Source: Bacillota bacterium (GTDB lineage: Bacteria; Bacillota; Dethiobacteria; DTU022; UBA8154). Taken from it: a stretch of 33,186 nucleotides of DNA. The stretch spans positions 1 to 33,186 of the forward strand of contig JAUSPO010000146.1 of assembly GCA_030656575.1 (NCBI GenBank), in the 5' to 3' direction. Shown in pieces: positions 1,059 through 21,233 of this stretch. Position 1 is the stretch's first letter. Every line of letters begins with the position of its first letter. The position numbers and the translations under genes were made by a program. Under the pieces are notes generated by a model. It was not told where the DNA came from. It did no database searches and saw only the letters and a program-made list of their open reading frames with translations.

Positions 1059-1657
1059 GAATGGCCACCCTCTCTCTCCATTTCTTTGGTTCTGTCAAAA
1101 ATTTCTTTAACTGCACCGCCATCAGCAATTTTATGGGGCAGCAGGCTTATTTTTCTATTGAGCAGCATGGCCGGACCCAGCATAATATCTTTAAAAAACT
1201 GCCCTGATTTAAGATTGAAACCCATAATCAGGCCCATTTCAAATACCCGGCCGAACTGTCTGACCGACCAGAGAAAAAGATCCCCAAAAAGCTTGATCTG
1301 TTTCTCCGGTGCGTGACCGCGCTTAATGGCTTCCAGCCTTAAAGTGTCCATGATACGAGGCAGGTCAACGCTGCGTGGACAGCGGCTATAACAGGTGATA
1401 CAGTGGGAACACAACCAGATCGTATGAGAATGCAAAATGTCATCAACCATCCCCAACTGAAGCATGCGCATGATCTCCCGGGGCATATAATCCATATCAA
1501 AGGCCAAGGGGCATCCGGCTGAACATTTCCCACACTGATAACAGTCTTTCTCATCAACACCGCTCTCCTGGCGAACCATCGCCACGAAACTTCTACTCTC
1601 AGTGAAAAGGGTGCTGATATTCACTAAATTAGATTTTTTTACAGTTTTACTGCCCAT
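1055..1657 (-). CDS. hdrC: HdrC-like heterodisulfide reductase subunit C (2x[4Fe-4S] ferredoxin)
   Basis: The 200-residue protein has two classical [4Fe-4S] ferredoxin motifs, CYQCGKCSAGCP and CSHCITCYSRCP, in its N-terminal half, followed by a helical C-terminal region. This is the HdrC arrangement, in which the protein wires electrons between HdrA and the catalytic HdrB. The ATG at 1655-1657 lies 8 bases after GGAGGG. The stop overlaps the hdrB start. The gene follows the dikinase ATP subunit by about 49 bases on the same strand, so it is probably in the same transcript. Family call is firm. Confidence 0.92.
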   Translation of the reverse strand: MGSKTVKKSNLVNISTLFTESRSFVAMVRQESGVDEKDCYQCGKCSAGCPLAFDMDYMPREIMRMLQLGMVDDILHSHTIWLCSHCITCYSRCPRSVDLPRIMDTLRLEAIKRGHAPEKQIKLFGDLFLWSVRQFGRVFEMGLIMGFNLKSGQFFKDIMLGPAMLLNRKISLLPHKIADGGAVKEIFDRTKEMEREGGHS

Positions 1658-1706
1658 AGTCTCTACCCTCCAGCCCTGAGGACTCGCCGTAAAAAATAGC
1701 AGTTAA

Positions 1707-2804
1707 TTAAAACCTTTTAAATACCTTGCTTATAAACAGATCGGCAATGTTTTCCGCACTCAGCTTTTTATGCTCCACAACATTACTTACCGGTCTTGTT
1801 TGCAGAAGTAAGAGGTTATCCTCAGAGGACAAATCCTGATCTACAGCCCATTCCACATCCTGGGGAGCCCCAAAATACTGCTCCAGCTGCAGGGCAAAAC
1901 GAATTATTCTCTGAAGCTCTTCTCTGGAGAGGCAGGGGTTATTTTGCAGTTCCAACGGAACCTCTTCCTCAGTTGTTCCTTTACTGCTGTAGACAACCCG
2001 CTTTGTTTTACAATTAATCGTGGGATCAATATGCATAGTTTGCTTATCAATAACAAAACGATCCGGTGATATATCCCCCCCGACTACGCTCTCACCCAGT
2101 CCCCAGTTTCCTTCAACCACGATCTTGTTGCGGTCACCGCTGGTGGGGTGAACGGTAAAGGCAACACCGGACGACTTGGCGTTAACCATCTTTAGAACAC
2201 CAACACCGATGGGGGATGTAATATCAATCTTTGGTTCAGGCCCTCCCAGGGAAGTCCCCAGGGAAGGCCGAATAAAACTCTGCTGTGTACTCTTTTGAAT
2301 ACGATAAGCAATCGCCTGGGTGGTAAAAGTGCTGGACCAGCAGTGAATAATTTTTTGTATGACATCCTCAACACCCCGAATATTTAAATACGTTTCAAAC
2401 TGTCCCGGCATGCTCACAGGCCCACTGGAGCGAATTGCTACAGGAACATCTTCTATCCCGCTTTGCTCTTCCACTTCCCGGTAATAGATCCTGATCGTCT
2501 CCGCCATATCTTCCGGCATCTGTCTGGAATCGATCAACTTACGTAAAGCTAAACTGATTTTCTGGTATTCGCTGTAGTTTAAAGGACTGAAGAGGTTATA
2601 CTGTTTTAAATATTCGGTTATTTCCTGGTAAAGCCCTGTTTTATGAAGAAACAAGGTATAAGCATCCACAGAAAGGGCAAATCCTGGCGGTACCGGTAAC
2701 CCAACATGGGTCATCTCACCTAAATTTGCACACTTTTTGCCAACACTGAGAAACTTCTGCTGCGTCAGCTCATTAAACCTGAACAACCATCGTTTTTCAT
2801 CCAC
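1707..2804 (-). CDS. Dikinase ATP-grasp subunit (PEP synthase/PPDK N-terminal-like; phenylphosphate synthase beta-like)
   Basis: This stand-alone ATP-binding half of a PEP-synthase-type dikinase is about 365 residues long. Visible landmarks in order are KKCANLGEMTHVGLPVPPGF, VAIRSSGPVSMPGQFETYLN, VNAKSSGVAFTVHP, EGNWGLGESVVGGDISPDRF and finally DVEWAVDQ with LLLLQTRPVS. In the family this domain transfers the ATP beta-phosphate to the histidine of a swivelling His domain. Here the partner is encoded just upstream as a separate protein, as in phenylphosphate synthase of Thauera (40 and 70 kDa proteins). I chose the GTG at 2804 because AGGGAG then sits 8 bases upstream. An in-frame GTG at 2813 abuts that site. 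No CBS-domain third subunit is seen nearby. Confidence 0.82.
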   Translation of the reverse strand: MDEKRWLFRFNELTQQKFLSVGKKCANLGEMTHVGLPVPPGFALSVDAYTLFLHKTGLYQEITEYLKQYNLFSPLNYSEYQKISLALRKLIDSRQMPEDMAETIRIYYREVEEQSGIEDVPVAIRSSGPVSMPGQFETYLNIRGVEDVIQKIIHCWSSTFTTQAIAYRIQKSTQQSFIRPSLGTSLGGPEPKIDITSPIGVGVLKMVNAKSSGVAFTVHPTSGDRNKIVVEGNWGLGESVVGGDISPDRFVIDKQTMHIDPTINCKTKRVVYSSKGTTEEEVPLELQNNPCLSREELQRIIRFALQLEQYFGAPQDVEWAVDQDLSSEDNLLLLQTRPVSNVVEHKKLSAENIADLFISKVFKRF

Positions 2805-2818
2805 CAGTCCCACTCCCT

Positions 2819-4495
2819 TTAATCTTCCAGCAAATATACGACGCCCAAGTTACCGTCAACACGTACACGCTGGCCGTTTCTAATCTGCTTGGTTCCAACA
2901 AAAACGTTCATCACCACGGGAATATTGTACTCCCGTCCCACAATGGCGGCATGGGAAAGGCTCGCTCCCCTGTCGACGACGACACCTTTCAGCAGAGAAA
3001 AAACAGGCGTCCAGGTCGGATATGTGGCCGGTGCTACCAGCACTTCGCCTTCCTGCACCTTGGCCAGGTCTTCATCGTTTAAAATAACTCTGGCCGGACC
3101 TTCTGCCACACCCGGGGAACCGGGGACTCCGTATAAATCAGCTTTTAATTCCGGTCTGGGAACTGGGAAAGAACCAACCACGACCTTCAGGACAATAGGA
3201 TCGTTGGACTTAATCATCAGCCCCATGGCTTCTTCCATACTGAGAGTGCCGATCATGGGTGGATTATCCTTTTGACACCATTCACCCCACTCACGACGGC
3301 GGTCTTCCACAATGGGCTTCAGGTTGCAGTGGGTGGGCATAATAGCCGCCTTACGGATTTCATCAGGGATTATGAAAAGTACATCGTCGACCTCATTAAC
3401 GGCACCCGCTTCTTTAAAACGCTTTCCCCATTCCATTAGGGCACGGCGCATTAAAGCATGGGTATAAAATTCGTAGAGAATATTATGTTCTTCACTGAAA
3501 GAGCTGGACTTTTGAGCCAGTTCCATGATAGTTTTAAACCATTCCCGCTGTTCCGGAAGGATTTTTTCCAGGACTGTCTTCTCCATCTCTTCCCGCTCTT
3601 GAACCAGTTTTTTCCGTTCCAGGTCCAGGTCAAACTGAGATCCTTTTTTCACAAAATGACGGATATTAACCAATGCAGGTGTTACATCCTCCACCCAACT
3701 TGGCATGTTAAACTCCGACATACGATTGGAACGCCAGCCACGCTCCCAAATAAATTCATTTAATTGCTTCAGCCATTCCTGGGCCTCTTCTCTTGCCTGC
3801 AGGGCCGGGAGGTATTCCTTGGGTTGAAGGTCGGTAAAAATATCCTTAAACCCGCCTTCTTCAGCCATACGGGACAGTTCCCACATTCTTTTATCATCCT
3901 GGAAGACTTTATTATCAAAGCCCCTCATTAAAGCGTGAAAATCAGAGTGAGTATCATCAATGTTCAACAATTCCTTGCACATATTTTCAAAAAGAATATA
4001 TACCCCAAAAACCAGGTACATCAAATACATGTGTATTTCCCACATGCGTTTATTCACATCGATAAGGGCATCAAAATGCTCCAAAAGAGCGATATTAGAC
4101 GCAGTATGGACATCAAAATCTCTCAACACGTCATAACGCTCAATAAGTTCGTTGTTATACGATTCATAAACGCCTTCATAATCCTGGATAAAGGGAATAA
4201 GCTGGCGTCTGAATTCCTTTTCCCGGGCTTTTATCTCCTCAGGGTCATCCACAATAAGCAGGGCCAGGTAGCCGCCGCCGTCTTTGAGGCGCCAATCCCA
4301 CCCTTTACAGGTAGGAAGCGAAAGTTTCTCCGCACCCCACTGCATTCCATGGCGGCAAAAGTTAATCCACGACCATGCAAACATGGGCGTCCACGGGGGA
4401 ACAGAATGGGTTGCATCCAGGAACCAGGCCTTGTGGTGTTCAAGATCCACCTTCTCATCAAACTCAAAGGGTGTAATATCATACTTCATCGTCAT
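2819..4495 (-). CDS. Dikinase substrate-binding/His-domain subunit (phenylphosphate synthase alpha / rifampin phosphotransferase-like)
   Basis: The protein has 558 residues. Roughly the first 440 form a helical region with no textbook motif, where substrate binding would lie by analogy with rifampin phosphotransferase. The last ~110 residues are a PEP-utilising mobile domain beginning at DLYGVPGSPGVAEGPARV. The phospho-accepting histidine is in GASLSHAAIVGREYNIPVV, at codon 515, so catalysis looks intact. Together with the ATP-grasp subunit encoded 14 bases downstream it should phosphorylate an organic acceptor, releasing AMP and phosphate; that reaction is inferred from the family. Two starts are possible, ATG at 4495 or 4489. 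The second gives MKYD, which aligns with the MKYS start of the paralogue at 18935. Confidence 0.83.
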   Translation of the reverse strand: MTMKYDITPFEFDEKVDLEHHKAWFLDATHSVPPWTPMFAWSWINFCRHGMQWGAEKLSLPTCKGWDWRLKDGGGYLALLIVDDPEEIKAREKEFRRQLIPFIQDYEGVYESYNNELIERYDVLRDFDVHTASNIALLEHFDALIDVNKRMWEIHMYLMYLVFGVYILFENMCKELLNIDDTHSDFHALMRGFDNKVFQDDKRMWELSRMAEEGGFKDIFTDLQPKEYLPALQAREEAQEWLKQLNEFIWERGWRSNRMSEFNMPSWVEDVTPALVNIRHFVKKGSQFDLDLERKKLVQEREEMEKTVLEKILPEQREWFKTIMELAQKSSSFSEEHNILYEFYTHALMRRALMEWGKRFKEAGAVNEVDDVLFIIPDEIRKAAIMPTHCNLKPIVEDRRREWGEWCQKDNPPMIGTLSMEEAMGLMIKSNDPIVLKVVVGSFPVPRPELKADLYGVPGSPGVAEGPARVILNDEDLAKVQEGEVLVAPATYPTWTPVFSLLKGVVVDRGASLSHAAIVGREYNIPVVMNVFVGTKQIRNGQRVRVDGNLGVVYLLED

Positions 4496-4511
4496 TTCAC
4501 TCCTTTAGCAT

Positions 4512-5279
4512 TTAATTCATTACTCTGCCGCCATCCACTAACATCGTCTGGCCAGTGATAAAATCACTGTAAGGTGAGGCAAAAAAAGCCACAGCCCCGC
4601 AGACGTCCTGAGGAACACCCAGGCGCTGGAGACAGTTTAAAGAAGTATCATATTTACTGACATCTTTAACAATGGTTCGGCTGGCTTCCGTATCCGTAAA
4701 TCCCGGAGCCACTGCATTAACGGAAATATTATATTGGCCCAGTTCCCTGGCCAGCGCTCTGGTCAACCCAATCACACCTCCTTTCGAGGCAACATAGTGG
4801 ACAAGGTTGTGGGAACCGGTAAAGAAAACCTCGGAGGCAATATTGACAACTTTCCCCCTTCCAAGTTCCTTCATCTGAGGGAAAAAAGCCTTTGTTGTCA
4901 GCCACGGCCCTTTTACATTTACGTTCAGCATCTGGTCCCACTCATCTTCGTTGATCTCCATAAAAGATTTTCTGTCAACACCAAAATAAATAGCTGCGTT
5001 ATTAATAAGGATCTCCACAGGTCCCATACTCCGATAGACATCCTCGGCCATAGCGCCAACCTGACTGCTGTTAGTCACGTCCACCGCTACAGCTTTGACT
5101 TCAATTCCTTCATTTTGCAGTTCCCTTGCGGTCTTTGCCAATACTTCTTCATTTCTTGCACCGATCACGACCCTGGCCCCGTGCAGCCCCAGAAAACGTG
5201 CAAATTCTTTCCCAAGGCCTTTTCCACCACCGGTAATTACGGCTACTTTTCCGGAAAAATCAAGTCCTTCTACCTTCAT
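4512..5279 (-). CDS. Short-chain dehydrogenase/reductase (SDR)
   Basis: This is a classical SDR of 255 residues. It has the nucleotide-binding TGGGKGLG near residue 15, the LINNAA motif, a catalytic serine in VNIASEVFFTGS, the catalytic YVASK and the C-terminal GQTMLVDGG. An acidic residue after the second beta strand is not obvious and GARN follows instead, so NADP preference is possible but unproven. The ATG at 5277-5279 is preferred because GGGGTG lies just upstream and the protein then starts normally. The longer frame to 5381 would only overlap the FAD gene. It probably oxidises or reduces a hydroxyl or ketone on the pathway intermediate. Confidence 0.9.
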   Translation of the reverse strand: MKVEGLDFSGKVAVITGGGKGLGKEFARFLGLHGARVVIGARNEEVLAKTARELQNEGIEVKAVAVDVTNSSQVGAMAEDVYRSMGPVEILINNAAIYFGVDRKSFMEINEDEWDQMLNVNVKGPWLTTKAFFPQMKELGRGKVVNIASEVFFTGSHNLVHYVASKGGVIGLTRALARELGQYNISVNAVAPGFTDTEASRTIVKDVSKYDTSLNCLQRLGVPQDVCGAVAFFASPYSDFITGQTMLVDGGRVMN

Positions 5280-5311
5280 TGTTTCACCCCGATCTATTAA
5301 GACTTGGTTTC

Positions 5312-6973
5312 TTAAAAAGAACGTCCCGCCGTCTCCCAGATCTTCTCTAAACCCAGATCTCCGGCGATAACCTTGAAACAATTATAGCTGCTGCCCCTGC
5401 CAATTCCCCCTGCGGAATGAAGATTGGATGAACAAATGTATAAATTGGACACCGGGGTCCTGTAGTTGGATAATTCGGGTATAGGCCTGAACCTGCCCAG
5501 TTGGTAAGCATGCATGGCACCTTCCACCCAGCCGCCTTCAATCATATCGGGATGGCGGCAGACAACATCAAGGGGTGTAGTGATAAAGGCTTCAATCAGA
5601 TTATCCTTTGTCATATTGGGAGCATAATGAACCCATTGCTTGAAAAGTTCATCAACAAACTCTTTCTTTTTCTGCAGCCACTGCCGCTCTGAGAAGAAAC
5701 GAAATGGCGGTGCAAATTCCTCCACCAAGATACTGTGTTTGCCGGGATGGGCACGCGTCGGGTCCCAGATGCTATCGGGTGCAGTAATGATAAACATTTT
5801 ACTCGGCCATCCACGGGTAAAGATCTCGGCCTGGTAACGGGTGGCCATGTAATCAGGATCCTTGGGCCCGAAATATAAGCGGGGCTGCGGTCCCAAATCA
5901 GGGTTTGTTGCTGCCCCCTTATATTGGGGAAGTTCGTGCAGGGCCACATTACCCCACCAGATCTGAGCACGGTCATAATCTATATTGCGCACTCTATGAG
6001 CTACTTTGGAAGAGACGTACTGCTCACCCATCATGCGAAAGACAGTCTGCGGCACCCCCAGATCGCTGACTACAACCTGGGTCGCTCTTGCAGTGGAACC
6101 ATTTGCCAGTTCCACGCCAACGGCTTTGCCGTTCTCAATAATAATGCGTTCCACCTCGTGATGAACAAAAAACTTGCCTCCCATTTCGCTAAAAGCCCTT
6201 TGCAAAGCGTGGCTGATCGTATGGGTCCCGCCCAGCACTATGGAAGCAGATTCCCATGATAAGACCAGCGCCATGGTGTGAATTAAACCATAAAGACCTA
6301 TTACGTCCCCGGGGAAACAGCCTGTGGAAGTTTCAATAGCACGCATAAACAGCGTCCTTAATTCAGCGCTCTCAAAAAAATCGTAGGCGATCTGTTTTCC
6401 CGTCATAAACTGGTGAACCGGTTCCAACCCCGAATCGGGATCAAGGACGAGCCTTTCCAGCGCATCCGGTTCTCCGTAAGGGGTGGGAGGAGTGTAACGA
6501 TACTCACGAAAAGCTGCCCGCCAGTACTTGATATATTTATCATAGAGCATGCCATAGGCTTCCGCATCACGCTGAGAAAAGTTTTGGATCTGCTTGTATG
6601 TTTTATCAAAGTTTTCCTGGCTAAAAGATTCTTTTCCCGTCTCCAGATCAACGGTTAAGCAGGAATAACCGATAAAACTTGTTTCGTCATCAAAAACCAT
6701 TCCTTCATTTTGGTCGGGGAAAATGTACTGGAGCCCTTTGTCCTTCAACTTAAAATCTGTATAGGCAGGATGTGCCCAGAAACGGGTAAAATGGGCACAG
6801 GGGTTCTGGATAAACCCGGGCAGGGGCAGGTCCTCAACACAGGCCCCTCCGCCAATCTCCATCTGCCTTTCAAAGACGGCAGTTTTTAAACCAGCCCTTT
6901 GCAAATAACAGGCGATAATCGTTCCATGGTGACCTCCACCGACAACAATGGCATCATAAACTGCATCAGACAA
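5312..6973 (-). CDS. CrtI/PYROXD2-like FAD-dependent oxidoreductase (copy 1)
   Basis: The 553-residue protein begins with a Rossmann FAD site, DAIVVGGGHHG, then an ERQMEIGGGACVE segment. It ends with NLYICSSNLHSAGGIGRGS, the C-terminal FAD contact of the phytoene desaturase superfamily. Such enzymes desaturate, saturate or isomerise carbon-carbon bonds in hydrophobic or cyclic molecules; the reaction here is unknown. The start is TTG at 6971-6973, supported by AAAGGAGG eight bases upstream, with no better ATG. It is paired with a second family member at 7236-8846, separated by a 77-residue gene. No other carotenoid gene is present, so a carotenoid role is unlikely. The name phytoene desaturase should not be transferred. 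Confidence 0.85.
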   Translation of the reverse strand: MSDAVYDAIVVGGGHHGTIIACYLQRAGLKTAVFERQMEIGGGACVEDLPLPGFIQNPCAHFTRFWAHPAYTDFKLKDKGLQYIFPDQNEGMVFDDETSFIGYSCLTVDLETGKESFSQENFDKTYKQIQNFSQRDAEAYGMLYDKYIKYWRAAFREYRYTPPTPYGEPDALERLVLDPDSGLEPVHQFMTGKQIAYDFFESAELRTLFMRAIETSTGCFPGDVIGLYGLIHTMALVLSWESASIVLGGTHTISHALQRAFSEMGGKFFVHHEVERIIIENGKAVGVELANGSTARATQVVVSDLGVPQTVFRMMGEQYVSSKVAHRVRNIDYDRAQIWWGNVALHELPQYKGAATNPDLGPQPRLYFGPKDPDYMATRYQAEIFTRGWPSKMFIITAPDSIWDPTRAHPGKHSILVEEFAPPFRFFSERQWLQKKKEFVDELFKQWVHYAPNMTKDNLIEAFITTPLDVVCRHPDMIEGGWVEGAMHAYQLGRFRPIPELSNYRTPVSNLYICSSNLHSAGGIGRGSSYNCFKVIAGDLGLEKIWETAGRSF

Positions 6974-7001
6974 TTGGAAAACCTCCTTTTTAGCAATTTC
7001 A

Positions 7002-7235
7002 CTATCCTTTTAAAAACAAGATAAACGCCTTAAATAAAAAGACCGGCTTACGCAGAACCATCCACAGCATTTGCCGCAGATCCTTACCTTCTAAAAATGC
7101 AGTGATATACCAATGCACAGGCTCTGTCGATTCAATTTTCATACACAGACGATTGGCATTTTCCGGATCCACAAGCAGATCTGTTGTGTGAGCCGTTAGT
7201 TCTGTTTTCCCCAATCCGGTTGAACGCATCTTCAT
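7002..7235 (-). CDS. Small hypothetical protein between the two FAD oxidoreductases
   Basis: This is a 77-residue protein I do not recognise. The ATG at 7233-7235 directly abuts the TAA of the upstream FAD gene (TAAATG), and GGGG lies about nine bases before it, so it looks translated and coupled. It contains LLVDPENANRLCMKIES, then HWYITAFLEGKDLRQML, and ends in a hydrophobic, basic stretch rich in Phe, Leu and Lys. That C-terminal third could be an amphipathic or membrane-associated helix. Its position between two related flavoenzymes suggests an accessory or membrane-tethering role for one of them. This is inference from context only. Confidence 0.7.
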   Translation of the reverse strand: MKMRSTGLGKTELTAHTTDLLVDPENANRLCMKIESTEPVHWYITAFLEGKDLRQMLWMVLRKPVFLFKAFILFLKG

Positions 7236-8846
7236 TTATAACAACCCCTTTTCAACAGCTTTGGTGATTATCTCCGGTTCCTTCCACCACTTCTCAAAGC
7301 CGATTTCTTCCGCAATCGCATTGGCCCCGTTATAAGCAGGCCCGAAAACAACAAGGCCTCCGGAAAAACTGCTGGCACCGCAGAGAAACAGGTTTTTAAC
7401 AGGTGTAACGTGCCGTGAACAGTACTCGTTAGGGCGGTTATAACCCATCTGCAGCGCATGATACGCCCCCTGCTTGATTGATCCCTGCACCATATCCAGA
7501 AACTTATTTTCAATATCAAGAGGTGTTGATACGTAGTGCCATAAAAGGTTGTCATCTCTCAGGTTGGGAACATATTCTTCCAGGGTGCTCATTAAGCGCT
7601 CAGCTTGTTCCTGGCGAATGCGGTACCAGTGCTGGGCGCCCTCTGCCAGGTTATACGGCGCATGCTGGGAGATCTGTCCCGTATGCCTCCCCGGGGGGGC
7701 CTGACTGGGATCGTTGACACTGGGGAAAGTGCAGTTGAATGCTCCGCTGGTTAGTTTCCCTGCTCTAACCTGATCCCAATGGGCGATAAGCTCCTCATCC
7801 GTTTCTGCTCCAATCAGGTAGATAAAAGCATTATCAAGGTCGGGATTCTGATCGGCAGCCTTAAAATGCGGACGTTTTTCCAGGGCCATATGCACACCGA
7901 AAAGACTCATATCTTCCCATTTGTAGTCATTTATTCGCGTGATAAAATCTTTCTCCAGGTTTTCTTTCCCCACATAGTCAAAGAAAGTCTGATAGGGGTT
8001 AAGGGTGCTGGCTACATAGTTGGCATTATAGATGGTACCATTTTCCAGTTCCACTCCTTTGGCCACATTATTTTCCACAATAATGCGCTTAATGATCTGG
8101 CTGCCCAGAATCATTCCACCGTTATCGTAGACACATTTACTTAATACGTGGCTGAGACGGTGTGAACCCCCTATGCACTGGTAATAGTTGGCAGCCCGGT
8201 TAATCATGAGAGGGACAAGAAAACTTACCCCCTCCAGATTATAGTCCAAACCCCACTTGCAGGCTGCGTAAAGGATCAGGGCCTTTACATGTTCGTTTTC
8301 AAAAAGTTCATCCACGATCTCTTTGGGCGTTCTTCCCGTGTGGTCCTGAATTTCCCTCCCCACCTGAGTGCTCTGCATCTTTAACAAGTGTTCAAATGCG
8401 GGTTCCGCCCGAACATAGGTCGCCGGCGCCAAAAAATCATCCACATATGCTTTGTAACGATGGAACATTTCCCGATACGACTCGCTATCACGCTGTGAAA
8501 ACTGGGCAATAGACCGGCAGGTTCTTTCCACATCACTATAAATACAAAGACTTCGGCCATCTTTCAGAGGCATGGCCATCACAGGCTCCGGGCGGATAAA
8601 ACGCAAACCGTATTTTTCATACAGTTCCAGATCGGCAAAAACGGGTGCATAATCCACCATAGCATGGAAGACCGCATGGGTACTGTGCAGAAAACCGGGT
8701 AAGGTAACCTGCTCGGTTTGCAAGCCCCCTCCAATCTCCACCCTGCGTTCCAAAATCAGAACTTTTTGTCCGGCCTTGGCAAGGTAGCCGCCCAGTGTAA
8801 GGCCATTGGGTCCTGCCCCAATGATAATGCAATCGTAATTACTCAT
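7236..8846 (-). CDS. CrtI/PYROXD2-like FAD-dependent oxidoreductase (copy 2)
   Basis: The 536-residue protein starts [20 protein letters not shown], a canonical FAD-binding GxGxxG, followed by [13 protein letters not shown]. The end, [20 protein letters not shown], matches the C-terminal FAD contact of the family. It resembles the other flavoenzyme in architecture but is clearly divergent, so the two may act on successive intermediates or form a heteromer. The ATG at 8844-8846 is chosen. GGAGG lies 13 bases upstream, slightly far, while the longer frame to 8933 adds 29 unlikely residues. The 130 bases before it, after the Mo-enzyme stop, are AT-rich with two TATAAT-like hexamers on the minus strand, so an internal promoter is possible. 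Confidence 0.85.
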
Positions 8847-8976
8847 TTTGATAGAAAAGCCTCCTCTCACAAATGCTAAACTTCCTGACTCGTGATGATT
8901 ATAAAATGAATATAATAAAGGCGAAATATTCACAGTAGGTAAATATATTATAAAATTTGGTCTATAGTAGCTATGA

Positions 8977-11025
8977 TTACAAACCCTTTACGCTGCAGAG
9001 CAGCGATTTTAAGGGATTCGAAGAGATAACAGGATCCCGCTGTTCGTTGGAAGTCAGGAAATTTATATTGGCCCTTCCTTCCCATCCATGAACTCCAAAT
9101 ACAGTACCGGGAGGCACTGCTGCTGTGATCCTAACGCACATCCGACAGCTTCCCCGAAGAGAACTGATCTCTATACTCTGGCCGTCAGCCAAGCCTAACC
9201 ATGCAGCCGTTTCAGGGTGGATCTCTGCCATGGGTTCTATCTCTTTTTCACGTAAACTATCGGACCAGCGAAAGGAAGAATTAACATAATACGTTGATTT
9301 AAAACTGGAAAAGATTAATGGGTAAGACGATAACAATTCCGGGGAGCTTAAGGGGCTTTCCTGCGGCTCACTATAACAGGGAAGCGGTGAGAGTCCTTCC
9401 TTTTGCAGGATTGCAGAAAAAAGTTCCACCTTTGTGGTGGGAGTTTTTAAGACTCCTGAAGAGCGAGTTGAATTTGACAAGGTGAGCAGCCCTTCCTCAC
9501 CAAAATCTTTTAGGGTCAGGCCCAGCGGCTGCAAACGTTCATTAAAACTTTCCTCTACACACCCCATCCAAAATTCTTTCTGAAGGCCCATTTCGTTTGC
9601 CAGGGCAAAAACCAGTTCTGTATCCGTCTTTGTGTTTCGGAATTTAGGCAAAGGCCTGTTTAATAGAAGCCCTTTGGGCATATCAGCATAATAGTTATCA
9701 TTAAGTGCAGGATCATAAAGAAGCAGTTCCAGGCCTTCAGATGCGAAAGCAGCCGGAAAAACAAGATCGGCCCATTTTGCTGTTTCAGTCAAAATAAAAT
9801 CGCTTACTGTGATAAAATCAAGTTTCGTGAGGGCTTTTTGCACCATTTCGGCCTGAGCAAGGGTGACAAATGGGTTACCTTTTGTGACGACCAATGCCCT
9901 GGGACTTTCACGGTGTGATTCGTGCAATCGCTGGATGAAGGTAGGTGCGGCTGCTGTATGCTTGAAACGGCATAATAGAGGGTATTCATTCTTTCCAATC
10001 TGCTGCTGCCGCTTTACTTCAGGAAGGGACTCAGAACGGGAAATGTCCCCCAGCGGTGAAGGGGAAAGTAAGGTGTTGCCTCCTTTCACATTAAGGTTTC
10101 CGCTAACAGCCATCAGGCTCAGGATAGCCCGTATTGACTGGAAACTATTGGTATGCTGATCCAGTCCGTTACCCATTTCTATACTGGCAGGCTTTTCTAT
10201 GGCATAGATTCTGGCAGCGGAAATAATATCTTTTTCAGGCAGACCTGTAATACGTGCCGTTTCTGCTGGCGTAAAGACAGAGACTTGTTCCCTCAGCTCC
10301 TCAAACCCCACACAGCACTGCTGGATAAAATTTTGATCATATAATCCATCCCTGATGATCACATGCAGGAAACCCAATGCCAGCGCCCCGTCAGTCCCGG
10401 GCCGTAAGGGCAGCCATACCTGCGCCATGCGTGCCAGGGAAGTCTGCCTGGGGTCCACGACGATAAACCTGGCTCCTCTTTTTCTGGCTGAAAGCAGTTT
10501 GTAAGAAGTACCCTTCGCCGTGGAAAGTTTATTTTTTCCCCATACGATTACGACTTTGCTGTTCTCAACATCGGGGGAAGCTAACGCCCCGAAGGTAATC
10601 AATTGGGCATTTTTTCGCGGTTGGGAACAAATATGGGAGCGGGAAAGGAGATTCGGCGTGCCGAATAAATTTAAGAAGCGCAGCAGGTACGGCGGGATAG
10701 AACCATACCCCTGGTCCCAGATAAGGGTTTCTGATCCATACTTTAAGCGAAGGTCAAAAAGTTTTTCCCTTAAAATCTCCAGTCCTTCTTTCCAGGAGAT
10801 TTCCTGCCAGGTATTGCTTCCCCGTTCTCCAACCCTTTTTAAAGGATGCTGCAGCCTCCTGGAGCTGTTTAAAAGCTCCGGCAGGTTCTTTCCTTTAAAA
10901 CACAGGGAGCCTTTGCTCAAAAAATCCAACCTGCTTACTTTGACCACATTGTGACCTTCCAGATGCAGTAAAACAGGACACTTGCAATCGCATAAAGGGC
11001 AAAATGAAGATCGCGTCATGTTCAT
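8977..11025 (-). CDS. Molybdopterin-dependent oxidoreductase (DMSO reductase superfamily)
   Basis: The 682-residue catalytic subunit has an N-terminal [4Fe-4S] site with Cys9, Cys12, Cys16 and a later GSLCFKG cysteine. The Mo/W-bisPGD domains follow, with [31 protein letters not shown] and [11 protein letters not shown]. The C-terminal dinucleotide-binding domain includes [17 protein letters not shown]. The cysteine in [14 protein letters not shown] lies where the family places the metal ligand, so Cys ligation is likely. There is no Tat signal, implying a cytoplasmic enzyme. No electron-transfer subunit is adjacent. Reactions in the family range from hydroxylation to hydration and transhydroxylation; none can be chosen from sequence alone. 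The start ATG at 11025 follows GGGGGA. Confidence 0.9.
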
Positions 11026-11054
11026 TCTTCGTATCCCCCATTTATGAAGAAAGT

Positions 11055-11456
11055 TTAACCGGGTTCTGTTCTGATTGTTCTCCGGGGTGTACCCAGGGGC
11101 TTCTCCAACCTGGAACGGCGTTTGAACTCGGCCGCATTACGCCAGACTTCCATAGGAATATCCCATTCGGTCATGCACCGAATTCTCATAACCTCATCTT
11201 CTGTTAAACCAAGTTTTTCTGCAATTTCCTGATCAGAGAGCTGATCCTGAGCCACCAAAATGACACTACCGTCTGGGGATGCTTCCCATTTCTGATAAGC
11301 AAGTGACAGCTTTAAAACTCTGTCCTTAAAAACATTATATAAGTCCAGAGGAACACAAAAGAGGTCATAAACGGATGTTCCAAAGGAATCTCCCGCTAAT
11401 CCACTGTCTTTTCTGCTTTTTTCAAGTATTACTTCTGAATAATCCTGACTACTCAT
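11055..11456 (-). CDS. Hypothetical protein with helix-turn-helix-like segment
   Basis: The protein has about 133 residues and is of no family I recognise. Residues near the middle, LSDQEIAEKLGLTEDEVMRI, read like a helix-turn-helix or a short helical hairpin. The C-terminus is basic (AEFKRRSRLEKPLGTPRR). The ATG at 11454-11456 has GGAAGGTG upstream and overlaps the preceding Fe-S gene by eight bases. It sits 29 bases before the molybdopterin oxidoreductase, so a maturation, chaperone or regulatory partner of that enzyme is one possibility. An operon-specific DNA-binding protein is the other. Neither is shown. Confidence 0.7.
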   Translation of the reverse strand: MSSQDYSEVILEKSRKDSGLAGDSFGTSVYDLFCVPLDLYNVFKDRVLKLSLAYQKWEASPDGSVILVAQDQLSDQEIAEKLGLTEDEVMRIRCMTEWDIPMEVWRNAAEFKRRSRLEKPLGTPRRTIRTEPG

Positions 11457-12330
11457 TTGCAGCACCTTCCCTGCTTTTTAAAAATGATTTAAATGCCTTC
11501 CTGTTTACAGGACATACGCGCATACATTCTATACATCTACCCCAAATCCCACGTCCCGGAGGATCCTCTGCATATTGTCTCGCCTGTCCAATGGCCAGAA
11601 ACTTTCTTTTCTCAGGGTCTTCTTCCTTAATGATTTCTGATAGCAATCGCAAATATGCTGCATTCATGGTTGTAAGAGCACGAGTGGCACATAACTGACG
11701 ATAGTAGATAACATCCTGGAGCCGGGACCCATTGATTGTCCCTTCAATAGCGCTGCAGGCGTCCATACAGGGTGTCGTTTTTTTCTTATTCCACATTTTT
11801 ATGCAGCTGCTGTGGGGACAAACAGGTTTACTTAACAGGCCGTCAGGCGTTAACTCCATCGTCGTTACAACCGCAGAAAACCCCAGAAGTCCAAACTTTT
11901 TGTTTAAAATAATCCCGCCTGCCATAGACCGGCTGCCCAGACCCGCGTATTCGGCAAGCACTTTCAGGCTCAGACTTACATTCATGCCGGTATCAGTCAT
12001 ATGTGCGTTGTAAACGATGGACGGGTATCCCTGTTTTTCCTCCAGATAGCGGGCAAGAACCAGGGGAATTGCATCCCGGGTTCCCATAGCGCTGCGGGAT
12101 CTGTGCATAACTTCAGTGCTGGACGTCATCCAGGTTCCCGCCGTATAACGACGTGCTCCGATTGTAATAACACTTTTTGCCCCGGCTAAAAGGTCCCCTG
12201 GGCGGTGTCCCCGGGGTGCGCTTTTGTTGATATCCTTAACAGAAGCAATGCCTGCCACATCGGCACCCCTCTGTAGGGCTATTTGTTTTATTTTCTCTTC
12301 CACAGCAACACCTATCATAGTACACCCCAT
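11449..12330 (-). CDS. QueG-like 4Fe-4S oxidoreductase
   Basis: The 293-residue protein resembles the epoxyqueuosine reductase/reductive-dehalogenase-like Fe-S family in its C-terminal half. It has CPHSSCIKMW, then PCMDACSAIEG, and GRCIECMRVCPVNRKAF. The last is a clear cluster motif. The earlier one is degenerate (CxxxC with missing neighbours), so the usual two full [4Fe-4S] clusters are not both evident. The N-terminal half (GADVAGIASV, SVITIGARRY) matches the family's substrate domain. The start may be ATG 12330 or, with GGGGTG upstream, ATG 12318. Its place in a catabolic operon argues against a housekeeping tRNA role. It could act as a reductase or electron carrier for a pathway step. 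Confidence 0.75.
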   Translation of the reverse strand: MGCTMIGVAVEEKIKQIALQRGADVAGIASVKDINKSAPRGHRPGDLLAGAKSVITIGARRYTAGTWMTSSTEVMHRSRSAMGTRDAIPLVLARYLEEKQGYPSIVYNAHMTDTGMNVSLSLKVLAEYAGLGSRSMAGGIILNKKFGLLGFSAVVTTMELTPDGLLSKPVCPHSSCIKMWNKKKTTPCMDACSAIEGTINGSRLQDVIYYRQLCATRALTTMNAAYLRLLSEIIKEEDPEKRKFLAIGQARQYAEDPPGRGIWGRCIECMRVCPVNRKAFKSFLKSREGAANE

Positions 12331-12385
12331 TCAGTGAAACTGTTTATCTATTGGAAATCACAAAACTTCAGCCCTTGACACATAA

Positions 12386-12967
12386 TTAACTAAAACCAAT
12401 AATTTCCACCAACCTGGGAAAGCCCTGCAGCAGGCAAAGTTCAATTTCCCGGGCGCTGGCCTGCACATATTGATCACTGTAACAGACAAAATGCGGGTCA
12501 GCAGGGTCATGTTCCGGTTTATAATAGCTCTCCTCCAACAACAGGTGGCCGTCTTGTCCGGCCAGTTCACGCAGAGTGAACACCTTTTCAGAGAGCTCGG
12601 GAAACCTCTCCTGCAGAGCCTGCTTCTGTTCATTTTCCATGGCGATAACCAGTGAAGCTGCTCCTGCAAGGGCTGAGGTGAATTCCTGCGATAAATAGTT
12701 TTCCACTTCCCAGCCACTTTTTTGCAGATAAGAAGTGGTCGTCGAATATGGGGCAACACCATAAAACTCATCCAAATTCTTCGTGCATCCAAAAGAAGAA
12801 ATGAGTTTGCTGTAATAATTCCAATACTCGTCTGCCATAATCCCTGCAGATTTTACTTCCACCTCATTTTCCAAATGACGTTCTTTTAACAAATGCTGCA
12901 GAAAAAACTCAGCAATGATACTCCTGCAGCGATTAGCTGTACAAATCGTTATAATAGTTTTTTTCAA
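12386..12967 (-). CDS. Low-molecular-weight protein tyrosine phosphatase-like protein
   Basis: The protein has about 193 residues. It carries the LMW phosphatase/arsenate reductase P-loop near the N-terminus, ICTANRCRS, with Cys9-x5-Arg15. A C-terminal EHDPADPHF supplies the DP general-acid motif of the family. It is longer than the usual ~150 residues, with insertions between the loop and the DP motif. The TTG at 12965-12967 is chosen because TGGAG lies 8 bases before it; the upstream GTG at 12976 falls within that site. A phosphatase in an operon encoding a phosphotransferase could remove the activating phosphate later in the pathway or act on phosphoproteins. That link is inference. Confidence 0.78.
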   Translation of the reverse strand: MKKTIITICTANRCRSIIAEFFLQHLLKERHLENEVEVKSAGIMADEYWNYYSKLISSFGCTKNLDEFYGVAPYSTTTSYLQKSGWEVENYLSQEFTSALAGAASLVIAMENEQKQALQERFPELSEKVFTLRELAGQDGHLLLEESYYKPEHDPADPHFVCYSDQYVQASAREIELCLLQGFPRLVEIIGFS

Positions 12968-13050
12968 CAGGATCACTCCATTTCATTTGATGAGCTGCTT
13001 CTCAGATTGGAACGATCTTACTGCATTACAAAAGTTGTTGTTTAGTATAG

Positions 13051-14334
13051 TTAAAGATTCGAAGCAGTTTTTTGAGGCTGAAGATGTTGAAGGAATTTCT
13101 CAACGATTTTTTGGGCAAATACGGGGTTATTCAAGGGAGCATCCACTGTGGTAAGGTTAATATGATTATAATTAATATGTCTTTGAAGCTCTTCCAGAAA
13201 GCAGGTATCCGCTTCCAGGTCATAAAGGGGCGAATCCTTTTCGCTTAAAGATGACCACCCCCGCAGGGGTATAACAATTTCAACCGGACCGTTTGCATAT
13301 TGAAGTTTTTCTGCAAACATCCGTGCAATCTCTTTTAGTTCATCTCTGTCCGTTCTCGCCTGAACCCGGTAGGCATCGGGAATAAACAGCTTACGCTCTG
13401 CCAGACGCCGGTTTATCCATAAAAGATCCCCCTTTTCCTTTCTTTCGAGCGGCCCACAGCTGATCATGTCAAAGCCACATGGCGTTACAACTTGTGGTAT
13501 TCCATTTTTACCCGCGGCCTCCAGGCGTTTTTTCCCGGCAGCCCTATTTCCTCCCAACAACTCCTCTGAAAGCCCTGCAGGTACAATATCCAAAACTCCT
13601 ATGTACAACCCCTGCTCAATAGCCTCATCCATGGCCCTGTCTCCAATCCCCTGGGCGTGGTAAGCAATGACTTCGAATCCCTTTTTCTCCAAAGCATGAC
13701 GAATATAATTACAGCAATAATCTGAGAATTTAAATTCGCTCATTGCTACGCGAGAGGAGGTGTTAGCAGTTTTTAATAAATCAGCGCTTAACGAGGAAGC
13801 GTTTACCATCCCGGCCATACATCCTGCAGCTCTTGACAGGATATCTCTGACCAAAGTATTTGTACCGCTAATATCTACAACCGAGTGAAAAAGAACCAAA
13901 TCCTTTGTCCCAAAATAACGGCCCGCATATTCCGGCATGGCTGCTGTGCTGGAAACAGCTAATTTCGGTAAACCAAAGGGGAGACTGTGCATAATCGTTG
14001 TAATCATTGTCGTTCCACTGGCACCCCCGATACCGATTACACCACCCAGCCTTTCCTCTTTTAATAAATCGGTCAGGATCCTTATTGCTCCTTTAATCAT
14101 CATCAGGGACCCCCAGGCCGTATCCCTGCTTTGCTGAATCTGCAGCAAATTTCCTTCAGCAGCGCAAGCAACCTGCGCAGCACTAATATCCGGGCTAAAG
14201 GCGGGATCTCCCCCGGTACTCAGATCCAAAATCATGGTTTTGCACCCAAACTGCTGTATCTGAGCCTGTAAAAGCTTCAGCTCATCTCCCTTTGTATCCA
14301 GGGTACCAATAATTACTACCATCGATTCGGGCAT
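13051..14334 (-). CDS. Tm-1-like ATP-binding (UPF0261) protein
   Basis: The 427-residue protein begins VVIIGTLDTKGDELKLLQAQ, the diagnostic N-terminus of the UPF0261/Tm-1-like family. It continues with GGVIGIGGASGTTMITTIMH, probably nucleotide-binding, and has YHAQGIGDRAMDEAIEQG and IPLRGWSSLSEKDSPLYD. Tm-1 of tomato binds ATP and blocks tobamovirus replicase. The bacterial members have no settled reaction, although they recur beside catabolic genes. The ATG overlaps the TAA of the aldehyde oxidoreductase (TAATG), so the two are coupled. The TIM-barrel partner domain that plant Tm-1 carries is absent here. Confidence 0.88.
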   Translation of the reverse strand: MPESMVVIIGTLDTKGDELKLLQAQIQQFGCKTMILDLSTGGDPAFSPDISAAQVACAAEGNLLQIQQSRDTAWGSLMMIKGAIRILTDLLKEERLGGVIGIGGASGTTMITTIMHSLPFGLPKLAVSSTAAMPEYAGRYFGTKDLVLFHSVVDISGTNTLVRDILSRAAGCMAGMVNASSLSADLLKTANTSSRVAMSEFKFSDYCCNYIRHALEKKGFEVIAYHAQGIGDRAMDEAIEQGLYIGVLDIVPAGLSEELLGGNRAAGKKRLEAAGKNGIPQVVTPCGFDMISCGPLERKEKGDLLWINRRLAERKLFIPDAYRVQARTDRDELKEIARMFAEKLQYANGPVEIVIPLRGWSSLSEKDSPLYDLEADTCFLEELQRHINYNHINLTTVDAPLNNPVFAQKIVEKFLQHLQPQKTASNL

Positions 14335-16169
14335 TACTGATCATCCCCAATAATTTTATCCAAACCCAAAACCTTAATCCTTTCAAAACCAGGCACCCCT
14401 TCATTGGAGTACTCCAGGTAGTCATAATATTCGGCTAAGAGTTTATCCAAAGATTGAATTACCTGTCCTGAGGAAAACCCTGCTTCCCGCAGCGGTTCTT
14501 TGAAGAACCTTTTTGGCAGTTGATCCCGGCTGCCCTCTGACTCTTCCCGCAAGTTAAAGAGCCTTTCCAGGGTTATGATTCTCTCCCCTATTTTTTCCCA
14601 CTCTCCTGTATCCCCCAGTTCTTCCCAGCCTGTCGCCCCCATGATTAGCTGGGAAAGCAGAGAATCATCCATTCCAGACATACCAAAGGTACAGCAAATA
14701 AGCACCTCTTCAAAAGCCTGGCGGATCTGAACTTGGGCTACCATCTGCCCTTTTCCTTCCTCGGTCCAGCCAAAACCGTCTTTAGCTCCGTAAATTTCAG
14801 GCCTGGGCCTTCCATACATATGGTTGCCTCCAATATTTGAAGTGGCATAACTAAGTCCGTACCCTTTTATAGCCCTGGGATCATATGCGGGAAGCTCTGA
14901 ACCTTTAACATGCATGGCAATCTCTTCCGCTCCATTGCCAATAATCTCCGCTGCTTTGCGCACACCCTTTCCTAACAGAGACCCTATCCCCTCAGCAATG
15001 GCAATTTGGCGAATCAAAGCATGAATAGCATCTACATTACCCCATTCGAGGTCAATTCCCCCCAATTGTTCTCTGGAAAGAATACCTCTTTGCAGCAGTT
15101 CACATGCAAAACCAATCACATTACCGGCACTGATGGTATCCAGACCAAGCTCATCACACAGGTGGTCAAAGGCAATTATCGCTGCCGGATCCGTATTGCC
15201 CACCTGTCCTCCAAAAGCCCAGATCGTTTCATATTCCGGCCCTTCGCTCTCATACCCCTGAAACTTACCTGTTGGCACGCGGTAAACCTGACCACATTTT
15301 GTCATACAATGGAAACATCCTTTATTGCGGACTTTGAATTCTTGAAAACTTTGGGCAAACAGATTTTCCACTCCATCCAGCTTCCCCGATTGGAAGTTGC
15401 GTACAGGATACATTCCCAACTCAACGGCCATCTCCACCATAAAAGACGTACCTTCCCTGGAAAGAGCTTTTCGGCGTGAATTCCCCTTTAAACGGGTAAT
15501 CTGCTCACTCAGCATTTCTTTAAACATTTGGGGCTTAGCCAGAGGGAGCCGCTTGGGAGCAATATCCAATACAATAGCCTTTAAATTTTTACTTCCCATA
15601 ACAGTACCTACACCGCAGCGGGCTGCTGCCCTTTTTTGATGCAAAATTGCTGAAAAAAGAACCTGTCTTTCGCCTGCCGGTCCGATAGTGGCAATTTTTG
15701 CTTGTTTACCATATCGCTCCTGCAATTTTTTTTCAGTATTTCCCGTAGTGAGGCCCCATAGCTCTTTTCCTTCCCGCACTTCCACTTTCTCTTTGGAGAT
15801 ATACAGATAACTGGGCTGATCAGCTTTTCCTTCAATAATCAACAGTTCAATCTCAGCAAACCTTAAATATGCTCCAAAGGAGCCACCGATCACTGACCTT
15901 CCAATTAAACCAGTAAGGGGACTTTTGGTAAGAACCACCCAACGGGACAGCCCCTGTGCCCCTGTCCCTGCCAGTAAACCCGGAGCCATGAATATCTTGT
16001 TTTCACTGCTTAAAGGATCTACTTTTGCTTTAACCTCATTATAAAGATAAGCCGCAGCCAATCCGCGCCCGCCATACATTAATTCCATGAACGTAGAGTT
16101 TACCGCTTCCAGAGTCACTGCTTTTGTAGAAAGGTTTATTCTTAATACATGTCCGGGTAAATAAGACAA
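14334..16169 (-). CDS. Aldehyde:ferredoxin oxidoreductase family tungsten/molybdopterin enzyme
   Basis: The 611-residue protein belongs to the AOR family. The N-terminus, LRINLSTKAVTLE and MYGGRGLAAAYLYNEV, is typical. GSFGAYLRFAEIELLIIEGKA and RCGVGTVMGSKNLKAIV form the pterin domain. The [4Fe-4S] cysteines are in CFHCMTKCGQ, with a later cysteine in ICCTFGMSG, and DELGLDTISAGN is the metal-pterin contact. Family members oxidise aldehydes to acids with ferredoxin, or run the reverse; the BamB benzoyl-CoA reductase subunit is a distant relative. The start is TTG at 16167-16169 with GAGGTG seven bases upstream. It is the first gene of the minus-strand operon and faces the divergent regulator. 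Confidence 0.92.
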   Translation of the reverse strand: MSYLPGHVLRINLSTKAVTLEAVNSTFMELMYGGRGLAAAYLYNEVKAKVDPLSSENKIFMAPGLLAGTGAQGLSRWVVLTKSPLTGLIGRSVIGGSFGAYLRFAEIELLIIEGKADQPSYLYISKEKVEVREGKELWGLTTGNTEKKLQERYGKQAKIATIGPAGERQVLFSAILHQKRAAARCGVGTVMGSKNLKAIVLDIAPKRLPLAKPQMFKEMLSEQITRLKGNSRRKALSREGTSFMVEMAVELGMYPVRNFQSGKLDGVENLFAQSFQEFKVRNKGCFHCMTKCGQVYRVPTGKFQGYESEGPEYETIWAFGGQVGNTDPAAIIAFDHLCDELGLDTISAGNVIGFACELLQRGILSREQLGGIDLEWGNVDAIHALIRQIAIAEGIGSLLGKGVRKAAEIIGNGAEEIAMHVKGSELPAYDPRAIKGYGLSYATSNIGGNHMYGRPRPEIYGAKDGFGWTEEGKGQMVAQVQIRQAFEEVLICCTFGMSGMDDSLLSQLIMGATGWEELGDTGEWEKIGERIITLERLFNLREESEGSRDQLPKRFFKEPLREAGFSSGQVIQSLDKLLAEYYDYLEYSNEGVPGFERIKVLGLDKIIGDDQ

Positions 16170-18802: not shown

Positions 18803-18864
18803 TTGACTGTTTTGGACAACAATTCATTTTTTTTTAACCCATTCTATCTGTTCTTGACTGTTTT
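18803..18864 (+). promoter_or_regulatory. Direct repeats TTGACTGTTTT in the leader of the second dikinase subunit
   Basis: The 11-base sequence TTGACTGTTTT occurs at 18803-18813 and again at 18854-18864, 51 bases apart, in the 146-bp gap before the next gene. The copies could be -35 elements (TTGACT) or binding sites for the regulator. AT-rich DNA downstream contains TATACT, but the spacing from the second copy (24) is too long for a standard sigma-A promoter. Confidence 0.4.
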
Positions 18865-18934
18865 TAAATATGGTAAAAATAATTATACTTTTATCCTTTC
18901 CTAAATAATGAAAAAGAAAGGTCGGGGAGAATAA

Positions 18935-20611
18935 ATGAAGTACAGTATTACTCCTTTTGAGTTCAACGAGGAACTGGACCTACAACATCATAAAGCATGG
19001 TTTCTGGATCCCACACATGCGGTCCCTCCATGGACACCCATGGTCGCCTGGTTCTGGATAAATTACTGTCGTCACGGCATGCAGTGGGCAGCGGAAAAAT
19101 TGCCTTTGCCAAACTGTAAAGGTTGGGATTGGCGATTAAAAGACGGATGTGGCTACCTTACAATGTTAATTGTGGATGATCCCAAAGAGATCTGGAAAAG
19201 AGAAATTGAATTTAAGAAAAACCTTCTTCCTTTTATCGAAAATTATGATAAAGAGTGGCTTGGTTTTATAAAAGAGATGCTCAGCCGTTATGAAGAAATT
19301 CAAATTTTTGAAGAAAAGACCGCCTCTAACATTGAACTGTTAGAACATTTTGAGAAAACATTAGAGTTAAATAAAAGAATGTGGGAAATTCATTTTTACA
19401 TGATGTATGTCGTATTCGGTGTTTTTATCCTTTTTGAAAGTATGTGCAAAGAACTCCTGGGCATAGATGATACTCATTCTGATTTTCATACGCTCATAAG
19501 AGGTTTCGATAATAAAGTCTTTCAAGTGGATAAAAAAATCTGGGAGTTTTCCCGCCAGGCGCGTAAAGCAGGTTTAAGTAACCTCTTTGTAACTGTTGAC
19601 CCGAAGGATTACTGCGAAGCTTTAGACAAGACAGCAGAAGGAAAAAAATGGCTGGGTGAGTTTAAAAGGTTTTTACAGGAAAGCGGTTGGCAGGCCAACC
19701 GCAAATCCTTTGAATTTAACCTGCCTCTTTGGGTCGAGGACCCTACTCCTGCATTGGTTTACGTAAAGCTTTACCTGCAAAAAAAAGAAGAACAATTCGT
19801 CCTGGATAAAGAAAGGGAAAAACTAGCTCTGGAACGCACGGCCACAGAAAAAAAACTTTTGGAAAAAATTCCTCTTTCCAAAAGGAAATGGTTTACAGAA
19901 GTTATGAAGCTGGCCCAAAAATCAAGCGCATTTAGCGAGGAACACAACGTCTATCTTGATCTCTACACCCATGCCTTACTGAGGAAAGTCCTAATGGAAT
20001 GGGGAAAAAGGTTAAAAGAAGCAGGTTCCATTTCACAGGTTGATGATATCCTCTTTTTAATTCCCGACGAGATTCGTAAAGCTGCAGTACAGCCAACTCA
20101 CTGCAATTTAAAACCTATCGTCAAGGAACGGCAGCAGGAGTGGGCAAAGTGGTGTGACCAGGAAAAACTGCCCATGATCTCTACTATCAACACAGCGGAA
20201 GCTATGGATCTAATGCTGAAATCCAATGATCCAATCGTGCTAAAGGTTGTCGTAGGCTCTTTTCCCGTTCCCAAACCTGACCTAAAAGCTGATCTTTACG
20301 GAGTGCCCGGTGCACCCGGAATTGCTGAAGGTCCCGCCAGGGTCGTAAGGACTGACGAAGACCTCGCCGAAATAAAAGAGAACGAGATTATGGTGGCCCC
20401 TTCCACTTATCCAAGCTGGACACCTGCATTTTCCCTTCTAAAAGGTGTTATCGTTGATAGAGGAGCAAGTCTATCCCAGGCTGCTATCGTTGGCAGGGAA
20501 TATAACATACCTGTGGTCTTAAACGTTTTTGAGGGGAGCAAACGAATTAAAACAGGCCAACGGGTTTGTGTGGATGGCAATATGGGGGTAGTATACATCC
20601 TGGAAAAATAA
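18935..20611 (+). CDS. Second dikinase substrate/His-domain subunit, catalytic His replaced by Gln
   Basis: The 558-residue protein is closely similar over its whole length to the subunit at 2819-4495 (shared HHKAWFLD, CRHGMQW, KGWDWRLKDG, IDDTHSDFH). The C-terminal swivel domain is present, but the active-site motif reads GASLSQAAIVGREYN. The CAG at 20477-20479 (codon 515) replaces the CAT histidine codon at the same position in the other copy. Such a protein cannot form phosphohistidine in the normal way. No ATP-grasp partner is adjacent; it follows the regulator and precedes an HD-domain gene. It may be a substrate-binding regulator or a non-catalytic partner. The ATG follows CGGGGAG. The surrounding domain is well conserved, which argues against simple decay. 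Confidence 0.85.
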   Translation: MKYSITPFEFNEELDLQHHKAWFLDPTHAVPPWTPMVAWFWINYCRHGMQWAAEKLPLPNCKGWDWRLKDGCGYLTMLIVDDPKEIWKREIEFKKNLLPFIENYDKEWLGFIKEMLSRYEEIQIFEEKTASNIELLEHFEKTLELNKRMWEIHFYMMYVVFGVFILFESMCKELLGIDDTHSDFHTLIRGFDNKVFQVDKKIWEFSRQARKAGLSNLFVTVDPKDYCEALDKTAEGKKWLGEFKRFLQESGWQANRKSFEFNLPLWVEDPTPALVYVKLYLQKKEEQFVLDKEREKLALERTATEKKLLEKIPLSKRKWFTEVMKLAQKSSAFSEEHNVYLDLYTHALLRKVLMEWGKRLKEAGSISQVDDILFLIPDEIRKAAVQPTHCNLKPIVKERQQEWAKWCDQEKLPMISTINTAEAMDLMLKSNDPIVLKVVVGSFPVPKPDLKADLYGVPGAPGIAEGPARVVRTDEDLAEIKENEIMVAPSTYPSWTPAFSLLKGVIVDRGASLSQAAIVGREYNIPVVLNVFEGSKRIKTGQRVCVDGNMGVVYILEK

Positions 20612-20660: not shown

Positions 20661-21233
20661 ATGGAGAAATTATGTAAGAAGCTATTTGATCTGGCCAGAC
20701 CTTATCTATCGGTAAGAAGCAACCAGGAGCATACTGAAGCATCTTTTTCGTTTGCCAAAGAACTTCAAAAACAATTGGGGGGAAGCCAAGAGATCATTTT
20801 TCCCGCAATTATTCTTCACGATGTTGGTTGGAGTGCAGTTCCAGAGGAACTGCACCTGCAAGCTTTTGGCCCAAAAAACGTAGATTTAAAGATTAATCGT
20901 ATTCATGAAGTTAAAGGGGCAAAAATTGCAGAAAAGCTCTTACAAGAAGTACCTTTGGGAAATCAAGAAAGAGAAGAAATATGCCGTATCATAAAAAATC
21001 ATGATTCAGGCAAAAATCCACTCACCTTAGAAGAAAAAATTGTCAAAGACGCCGATAAATTATTTCGTTTTTCTCCAAGAGGATTTTCTATCGATGCAGA
21101 AAGATTTGGTATTAATCCCCAGGAATACTGGCATATTCTAAATGATTTCAAAGAACTTTGGTTCTTTAATGAGTTAGGTAAAACATTTGCTGTTAGGGGA
21201 TTAGAAAAAGTCCAAGACCAGATGCTTAAATGA
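20661..21233 (+). CDS. HD-domain phosphohydrolase-like protein
   Basis: The 190-residue protein has the metal-binding HD pattern: an early histidine in NQEHTEASFSFAK, the ILHDVGW signature, a central histidine in IIKNHDSG and an aspartate in IVKDADKLFRF. HD proteins hydrolyse nucleotides or other phosphoesters. The small single-domain form here could act on a phosphorylated pathway compound or nucleotide. The ATG lies behind GAAGGAGA and 49 bases after the His-to-Gln dikinase subunit, so the two probably share a transcript. A hairpin follows directly. Substrate is unknown. Confidence 0.82.
   Translation: MEKLCKKLFDLARPYLSVRSNQEHTEASFSFAKELQKQLGGSQEIIFPAIILHDVGWSAVPEELHLQAFGPKNVDLKINRIHEVKGAKIAEKLLQEVPLGNQEREEICRIIKNHDSGKNPLTLEEKIVKDADKLFRFSPRGFSIDAERFGINPQEYWHILNDFKELWFFNELGKTFAVRGLEKVQDQMLK

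Follow-up and report, generated by a model that had tools for sequence, protein, structure and literature searches.

The window analysed here, a 33,186-nucleotide stretch of DNA from a Bacillota bacterium, encodes two paralogous A subunits of a two-component dikinase, and in one of them, referred to below as the Gln copy, the catalytic histidine is replaced by glutamine (the paralogue being the His copy). Judged from its sequence, the Gln copy appears to be a dikinase subunit that is naturally dead yet maintained by purifying selection, with the acceptor site intact in the window. The substitution is shared by a second genus of the same family (genome G001), where the gene order around it is conserved.

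Glutamine at the phospho-histidine position

The Gln copy is of the phosphotransfer (A/H) subunit type of the phenylphosphate-synthase/CreHI/HpeHI dikinases, and its 558-residue translation contains VDRGASLSQAAIVGREYN, with Gln at residue 515, the position that a printed alignment with rifampin phosphotransferase (RPH) pairs with His825. An earlier note on this DNA had read Gln (CAG) here against His in the paralogue, and both the translation and the G001 orthologue agree with that reading. The two paralogues are 65.5% identical as proteins, both match PF00391 (PEP-utilisers mobile domain; E = 1e-18 for the Gln copy and 6e-20 for the His copy), and both align with RPH across its acceptor-binding and swivel parts. 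The Gln copy has the layout of A/H subunits (~560-610 aa), with an acceptor-binding domain, then a C-terminal swivel domain, and no ATP-grasp domain; its swivel loop carries Gln515 instead of the phospho-His. Because of this replacement we do not file it as an active dikinase subunit; on its sequence we regard it as a relative and structural member of the A/H subunits. Its acceptor-site motif aligns with two RPH residues, Arg666 and Glu667, which contact the transferred phosphate and His825 (PMC4844700). An AlphaFold model built from three sequences was too poor for pocket mapping (mean pLDDT 59), and a Foldseek search with this model still returned RPH as first match.

The regulator gene ends 146 nt upstream of the Gln copy, and an HD-domain gene, absent from the earlier note, begins 49 nt downstream. 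Within the regulator/Gln-copy gap lies a candidate operator (Table 1), similar to an element in the same gap in G001; no operator motif common to this gap and the divergent promoter was established, the repeat count being near chance. Neither in the window nor at the G001 locus (L013) does an ATP-grasp B/I gene adjoin the Gln copy, for which the earlier note had likewise seen no ATP-grasp partner. The only cognate ATP-grasp gene of the window adjoins the His copy alone; a search of the rest of the window genome for B-subunit homologues at E <= 1e-30 yielded a single one, on contig C180. The two A-subunit genes belong to different transcription units. The minus-strand cluster that houses the A-B dikinase (192-16169) also encodes HdrBC-like proteins, an SDR, two CrtI/CrtO-like FAD oxidoreductases, a molybdopterin oxidoreductase, a UPF0261 protein, an aldehyde:ferredoxin oxidoreductase and a low-molecular-weight phosphatase-family protein (PF01451; 12386-12976, minus strand), the last being a further candidate for an aryl phosphatase in addition to the HD protein. 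This cluster probably represents an uncharacterised anaerobic pathway with phosphorylation as its first step.

Table 1. Coordinates of the features discussed, in window positions
Feature	Position	Strand	Basis or equivalence
XylR_N-V4R-PucR (HTH_30) regulator, 797 aa	16395..18788	+	domain matches
TTGACTGTTTTGGACAA in regulator/Gln-copy gap, possible operator (candidate)	18803..18819	+	similar TTTGACAGTTTGGACAA in same gap in G001
Ribosome-binding-like GGGGAG, 5 nt before Gln-copy ATG	18924..18929	+	sequence
Dikinase A (phosphotransfer/acceptor-binding) subunit, Gln copy, 558 aa	18935..20611	+	PF00391 at 480-551
Acceptor-site motif Glu-Glu-His, codons 335-337, kept in Gln copy	19937..19945	+	aligned with RPH Arg666/Glu667
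Codon 515 CAG (Gln), catalytic phospho-His position	20477..20479	+	equivalent to HpeH His581, PpsA His569, RPH His825
HD-domain protein, candidate aryl-phosphate phosphohydrolase	20661..21233	+	PF01966; neighbours in related clusters
Active-type paralogue, His515, 558 aa	2819..4495	-	translation, PF00391
ATP-grasp B subunit (PPDK_N), partner of His copy	1707..2813	-	PF01326, E = 1.5e-85

Descent and constraint of the Gln copy

The survey of homologues covered 98 genomes from the class, of which 71 belong to the order, and two largely overlapping phylum-wide samples of 398. Apart from the window genome, only G001 yielded a close Gln-type homologue. This orthologue (L013) is 70% identical at the nucleotide level, also uses CAG, and lies in the window's order of XylR_N-V4R-PucR regulator, A(Gln) and HD gene. 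The earlier note had named His in all homologues at this locus as what would tell against its reading, and the G001 copy does not have it. Every other homologue covering position 515 has His. Among 25 full-length sequences, including Azoarcus and Rhodococcus plasmid proteins, His is present in all 23 non-Gln rows, and Gln as a common family variant is ruled out. The tree groups the two Gln copies in a clade of their own (100/99); the window His copy is its sister (99/97), and that of genome G481 branches outside. Because of this clade, and of the independent CAG in G001, codon 515 is not an error of sequencing or assembly, and both copies probably inherited Gln from their common ancestor, a single His-to-Gln change being the simplest reading by parsimony from two sequences. 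Elsewhere in the survey, a tandem pair of A subunits with one B gene alongside (L041:2176-5676, G555) has His in both.

The two Gln copies are 72.5% identical as proteins vs. 46% at third positions and 31% at fourfold sites, the last being near random, which suggests that replacement changes have been strongly removed while silent sites were randomised; the neighbouring regulator and HD protein share 53% and 57% protein identity between the two genomes. Codon-based dN/dS gave no value since synonymous sites were saturated, and for this reason fourfold-site identity and lineage-unique changes were used. The latter number 29 in the window Gln copy, 24 in the G001 Gln copy and 37 in the His copy, giving no sign of acceleration. 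At 21 positions invariant in the 23 His homologues, the window Gln copy shows two departures, the loss of His515 and a conservative L486M, and its acceptor half has diverged at a few positions (R253Q and a one-residue insertion near 258). The swivel domain, which the earlier note had described as otherwise preserved, indeed retains its PF00391 match and is 78% identical between the Gln copies, rising to 94% across residues 500-530; the G001 copy lacks Gly510. In the manner of a pseudoenzyme, the catalytic residue would have been lost in an ancestor, once by parsimony from two sequences, with constraint kept thereafter. These data make it likely, to a high degree, that selection has kept the Gln copy in the window lineage, in keeping with the earlier claim of retention without decay.

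The locus in related genomes

The G001 Gln copy contains a single in-frame TAG (L013:4791-4793), which aligns with Glu335, an invariant residue of the acceptor site. G001 also encodes the large and small subunits of PylS, PylB, PylD and tRNA-Pyl(CUA) (L080/L078), and a corrinoid-protein-like ORF near these genes likewise reads on through TAG; an initial reading of this copy as an outright pseudogene was withdrawn on account of the pyl genes. TAG nevertheless terminates six other genes in the loci sampled, and we consider that this codon may be either nonsense or pyrrolysine. Radical changes number 6 downstream vs. 3 upstream of the TAG, a difference that is not significant (p 0.19). No PylS scored above the cut-off in the window genome.

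Gene order elsewhere suggests how the locus arose. In G481 (L012), a single operon runs from FAD oxidoreductases and an SDR through A(His) and B to HD, and the V4R regulator gene is divergent; the window has an A(His)-B operon lacking HD, and an A(Gln)-HD pair lacking B beside the regulator. Because HD directly follows A-B in related clusters, the arrangement at the Gln locus resembles an A-B-HD unit from which B has gone. The A(His)/B locus of G001 survives only as a rearranged remnant (A residues 1-145 and 338-403 in different frames, and only B 270-367), and a duplicate regulator-HD block on C83 (L075:7130-10146), 83% identical at the nucleotide level to C93, has suffered deletion of the Gln ORF, leaving its 3' end, with a complete 784-aa regulator ORF and a still recognisable HD gene. 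Loss of the Gln ORF beside an intact regulator, together with the A(His)/B remnant, favours the view that it is the dikinase, and not the regulator, on which the Gln copy depends, a pattern seen in the one lineage.

One may ask if the Gln copy is simply a slowly decaying duplicate devoid of present function. Loss of both the catalytic His and the B partner would fit this, as would the in-frame TAG and missing Gly510 in the G001 orthologue and the deletion in the C83 block. However, the window copy has an intact 558-codon frame preceded by a ribosome-binding-like site, constraint has been strong despite Gln in both lineages, the Gln copy evolves no faster than the His copy, and a history in which each lineage gained Gln separately and began to decay recently would be less parsimonious. 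Decay is thus rather improbable in our estimation.

Chemistry and possible roles

The closest biochemical precedent is HpeHI of Rhodococcus rhodochrous GD02, a two-component enzyme whose HpeH subunit has the same acceptor-binding domain and C-terminal swivel, and in which the same residue change (H581Q) left no detectable activity (PMC12167813). Phenolic phosphorylation by A plus B with ATP has been published for His-type homologues only, and HpeH by itself exchanges phosphate between aryl phosphate and phenol, a transfer that its authors assign to the conserved His (PMC12167813). From the inactive H581Q, the Gln protein would very probably be unable either to phosphorylate or to run the aryl-phosphate/phenol exchange, and by this analogy there is little doubt in our minds that it would be dead as a kinase, as the earlier note had proposed. 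H581Q was made in the laboratory, whereas the change in the window is natural, inherited by two genera and placed beside an intact His copy. PpsA of Thauera/Aromatoleum and CreH of Corynebacterium glutamicum share the A-subunit architecture and have A, B and a V4R-type regulator or phosphohydrolase nearby, but keep the phospho-His and the adjacent B gene, unlike the Gln copy. RPH (PDB 5fbs/5fbu), the top solved-structure match by sequence and fold, has the same order of acceptor-binding and swivel domains but is a single chain with its own ATP-grasp domain, His825 and a different acceptor. That phosphate still passes through some other residue of the Gln copy, or reaches the Gln copy in trans from the swivel domain of the His copy, would be in line with the preserved acceptor half of the window copy; against this stand the inactivity of H581Q and a predicted HpeH dimer interface on the face opposite the swivel domain (PMC12167813), and we give this notion very little credence.

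Our leading reading, still tentative and held at somewhat less than an even chance, is that the Gln copy serves the dikinase module as an A subunit that does not phosphorylate. The A-subunit gene would have duplicated before the host genus and the other genus split, with the Gln copy then kept by purifying selection. Its product should be able to fold and to bind either the phenolic substrate or the phosphate of that substrate, and should keep a docking-competent swivel domain; it would be unable to take phosphate from ATP. We surmise that it most likely works within the dikinase/phosphohydrolase module formed by the ATP-grasp subunit, the HD protein and the His copy. It may pair with the His copy as a hetero-partner, HpeH by itself being a mixture of monomer and dimer (PMC12167813), or alternatively act as a brake by tying up the ATP-grasp subunit or the substrate. 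The substrate binding of the Gln copy, its interaction partners and its net effect on flux are what we infer. Four points weigh against a role in the module: 1) co-loss of the Gln copy and the dikinase was seen in one lineage only; 2) if the G001 TAG encodes pyrrolysine, the Gln copy persists in G001 without this cognate dikinase; 3) the genes of the Gln and His copies are in separate transcription units; and 4) the window Gln copy carries the acceptor-half changes given above.

A link to the HD protein ranks as a close rival to this role in the dikinase module. Here the Gln copy would bind aryl phosphate, which it could not return onto His, and would buffer it or pass it to the co-operonic HD phosphohydrolase. 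This is consistent with 1) the short Gln-HD gap (49 nt in the window and ~27 nt in G001); 2) HD homologues adjoining dikinase A-B genes in several clusters (L042, L026, L028 and L018), the window HD protein being 33% identical to that of a Rhodococcus A-B-P450 cluster; 3) the exchange carried out by HpeH, of which the Gln copy should be incapable; and 4) the intact acceptor site of the window copy. In the cre cluster, CreD carries a phosphohydrolase annotation, and we take it to be an HD protein. The HD gene nevertheless remains recognisable in the G001 C83 block from which the Gln ORF was deleted, and the phosphohydrolase identity of the HD protein is only presumed from its context; we hold this buffering role to be credible but unlikely.

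The earlier note had suggested a sensing or binding role, or a subunit that modulates the active enzyme, and had asked if Gln copies form a clade always adjoining the XylR_N-V4R-PucR regulator. On the sensing reading, the Gln copy would be a ligand-sensing partner of that regulator. They do form one clade, and the two genes are adjacent and co-directional in both genomes having the Gln copy, but the C83 block retains a full regulator ORF and no Gln ORF. In addition, related V4R regulators sit with His-type clusters that have no Gln copy, and V4R domains of this kind sense phenol directly (PMC10715001). The sensing role is weakened by these findings to the point of being quite improbable.

We did not find in the open-licence literature any described case of a natural, conserved and retained inactive A subunit in this dikinase family. 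The family and a bench-made dead mutant were already known; the new aspect would be that such an inactive A subunit occurs naturally and is conserved. A bolder and doubtful possibility is that the Gln clade is a distinct class, a pseudo-dikinase subunit controlling or channelling substrate for anaerobic aromatic phosphorylation, in which the G001 protein may carry an acceptor-site pyrrolysine (TAG at the invariant Glu335, with a full pyl cassette in the genome). The HpeHI authors found the reason for starting with phosphorylation unclear (PMC12167813), and the wider question is what purpose is served by phosphorylating phenolics ahead of their breakdown, and by what means ATP-costly dikinases are controlled. 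A conserved His-to-Gln subunit that matches a published dead mutant makes it testable that a dead A subunit may modulate the live enzyme or bind aryl phosphate.
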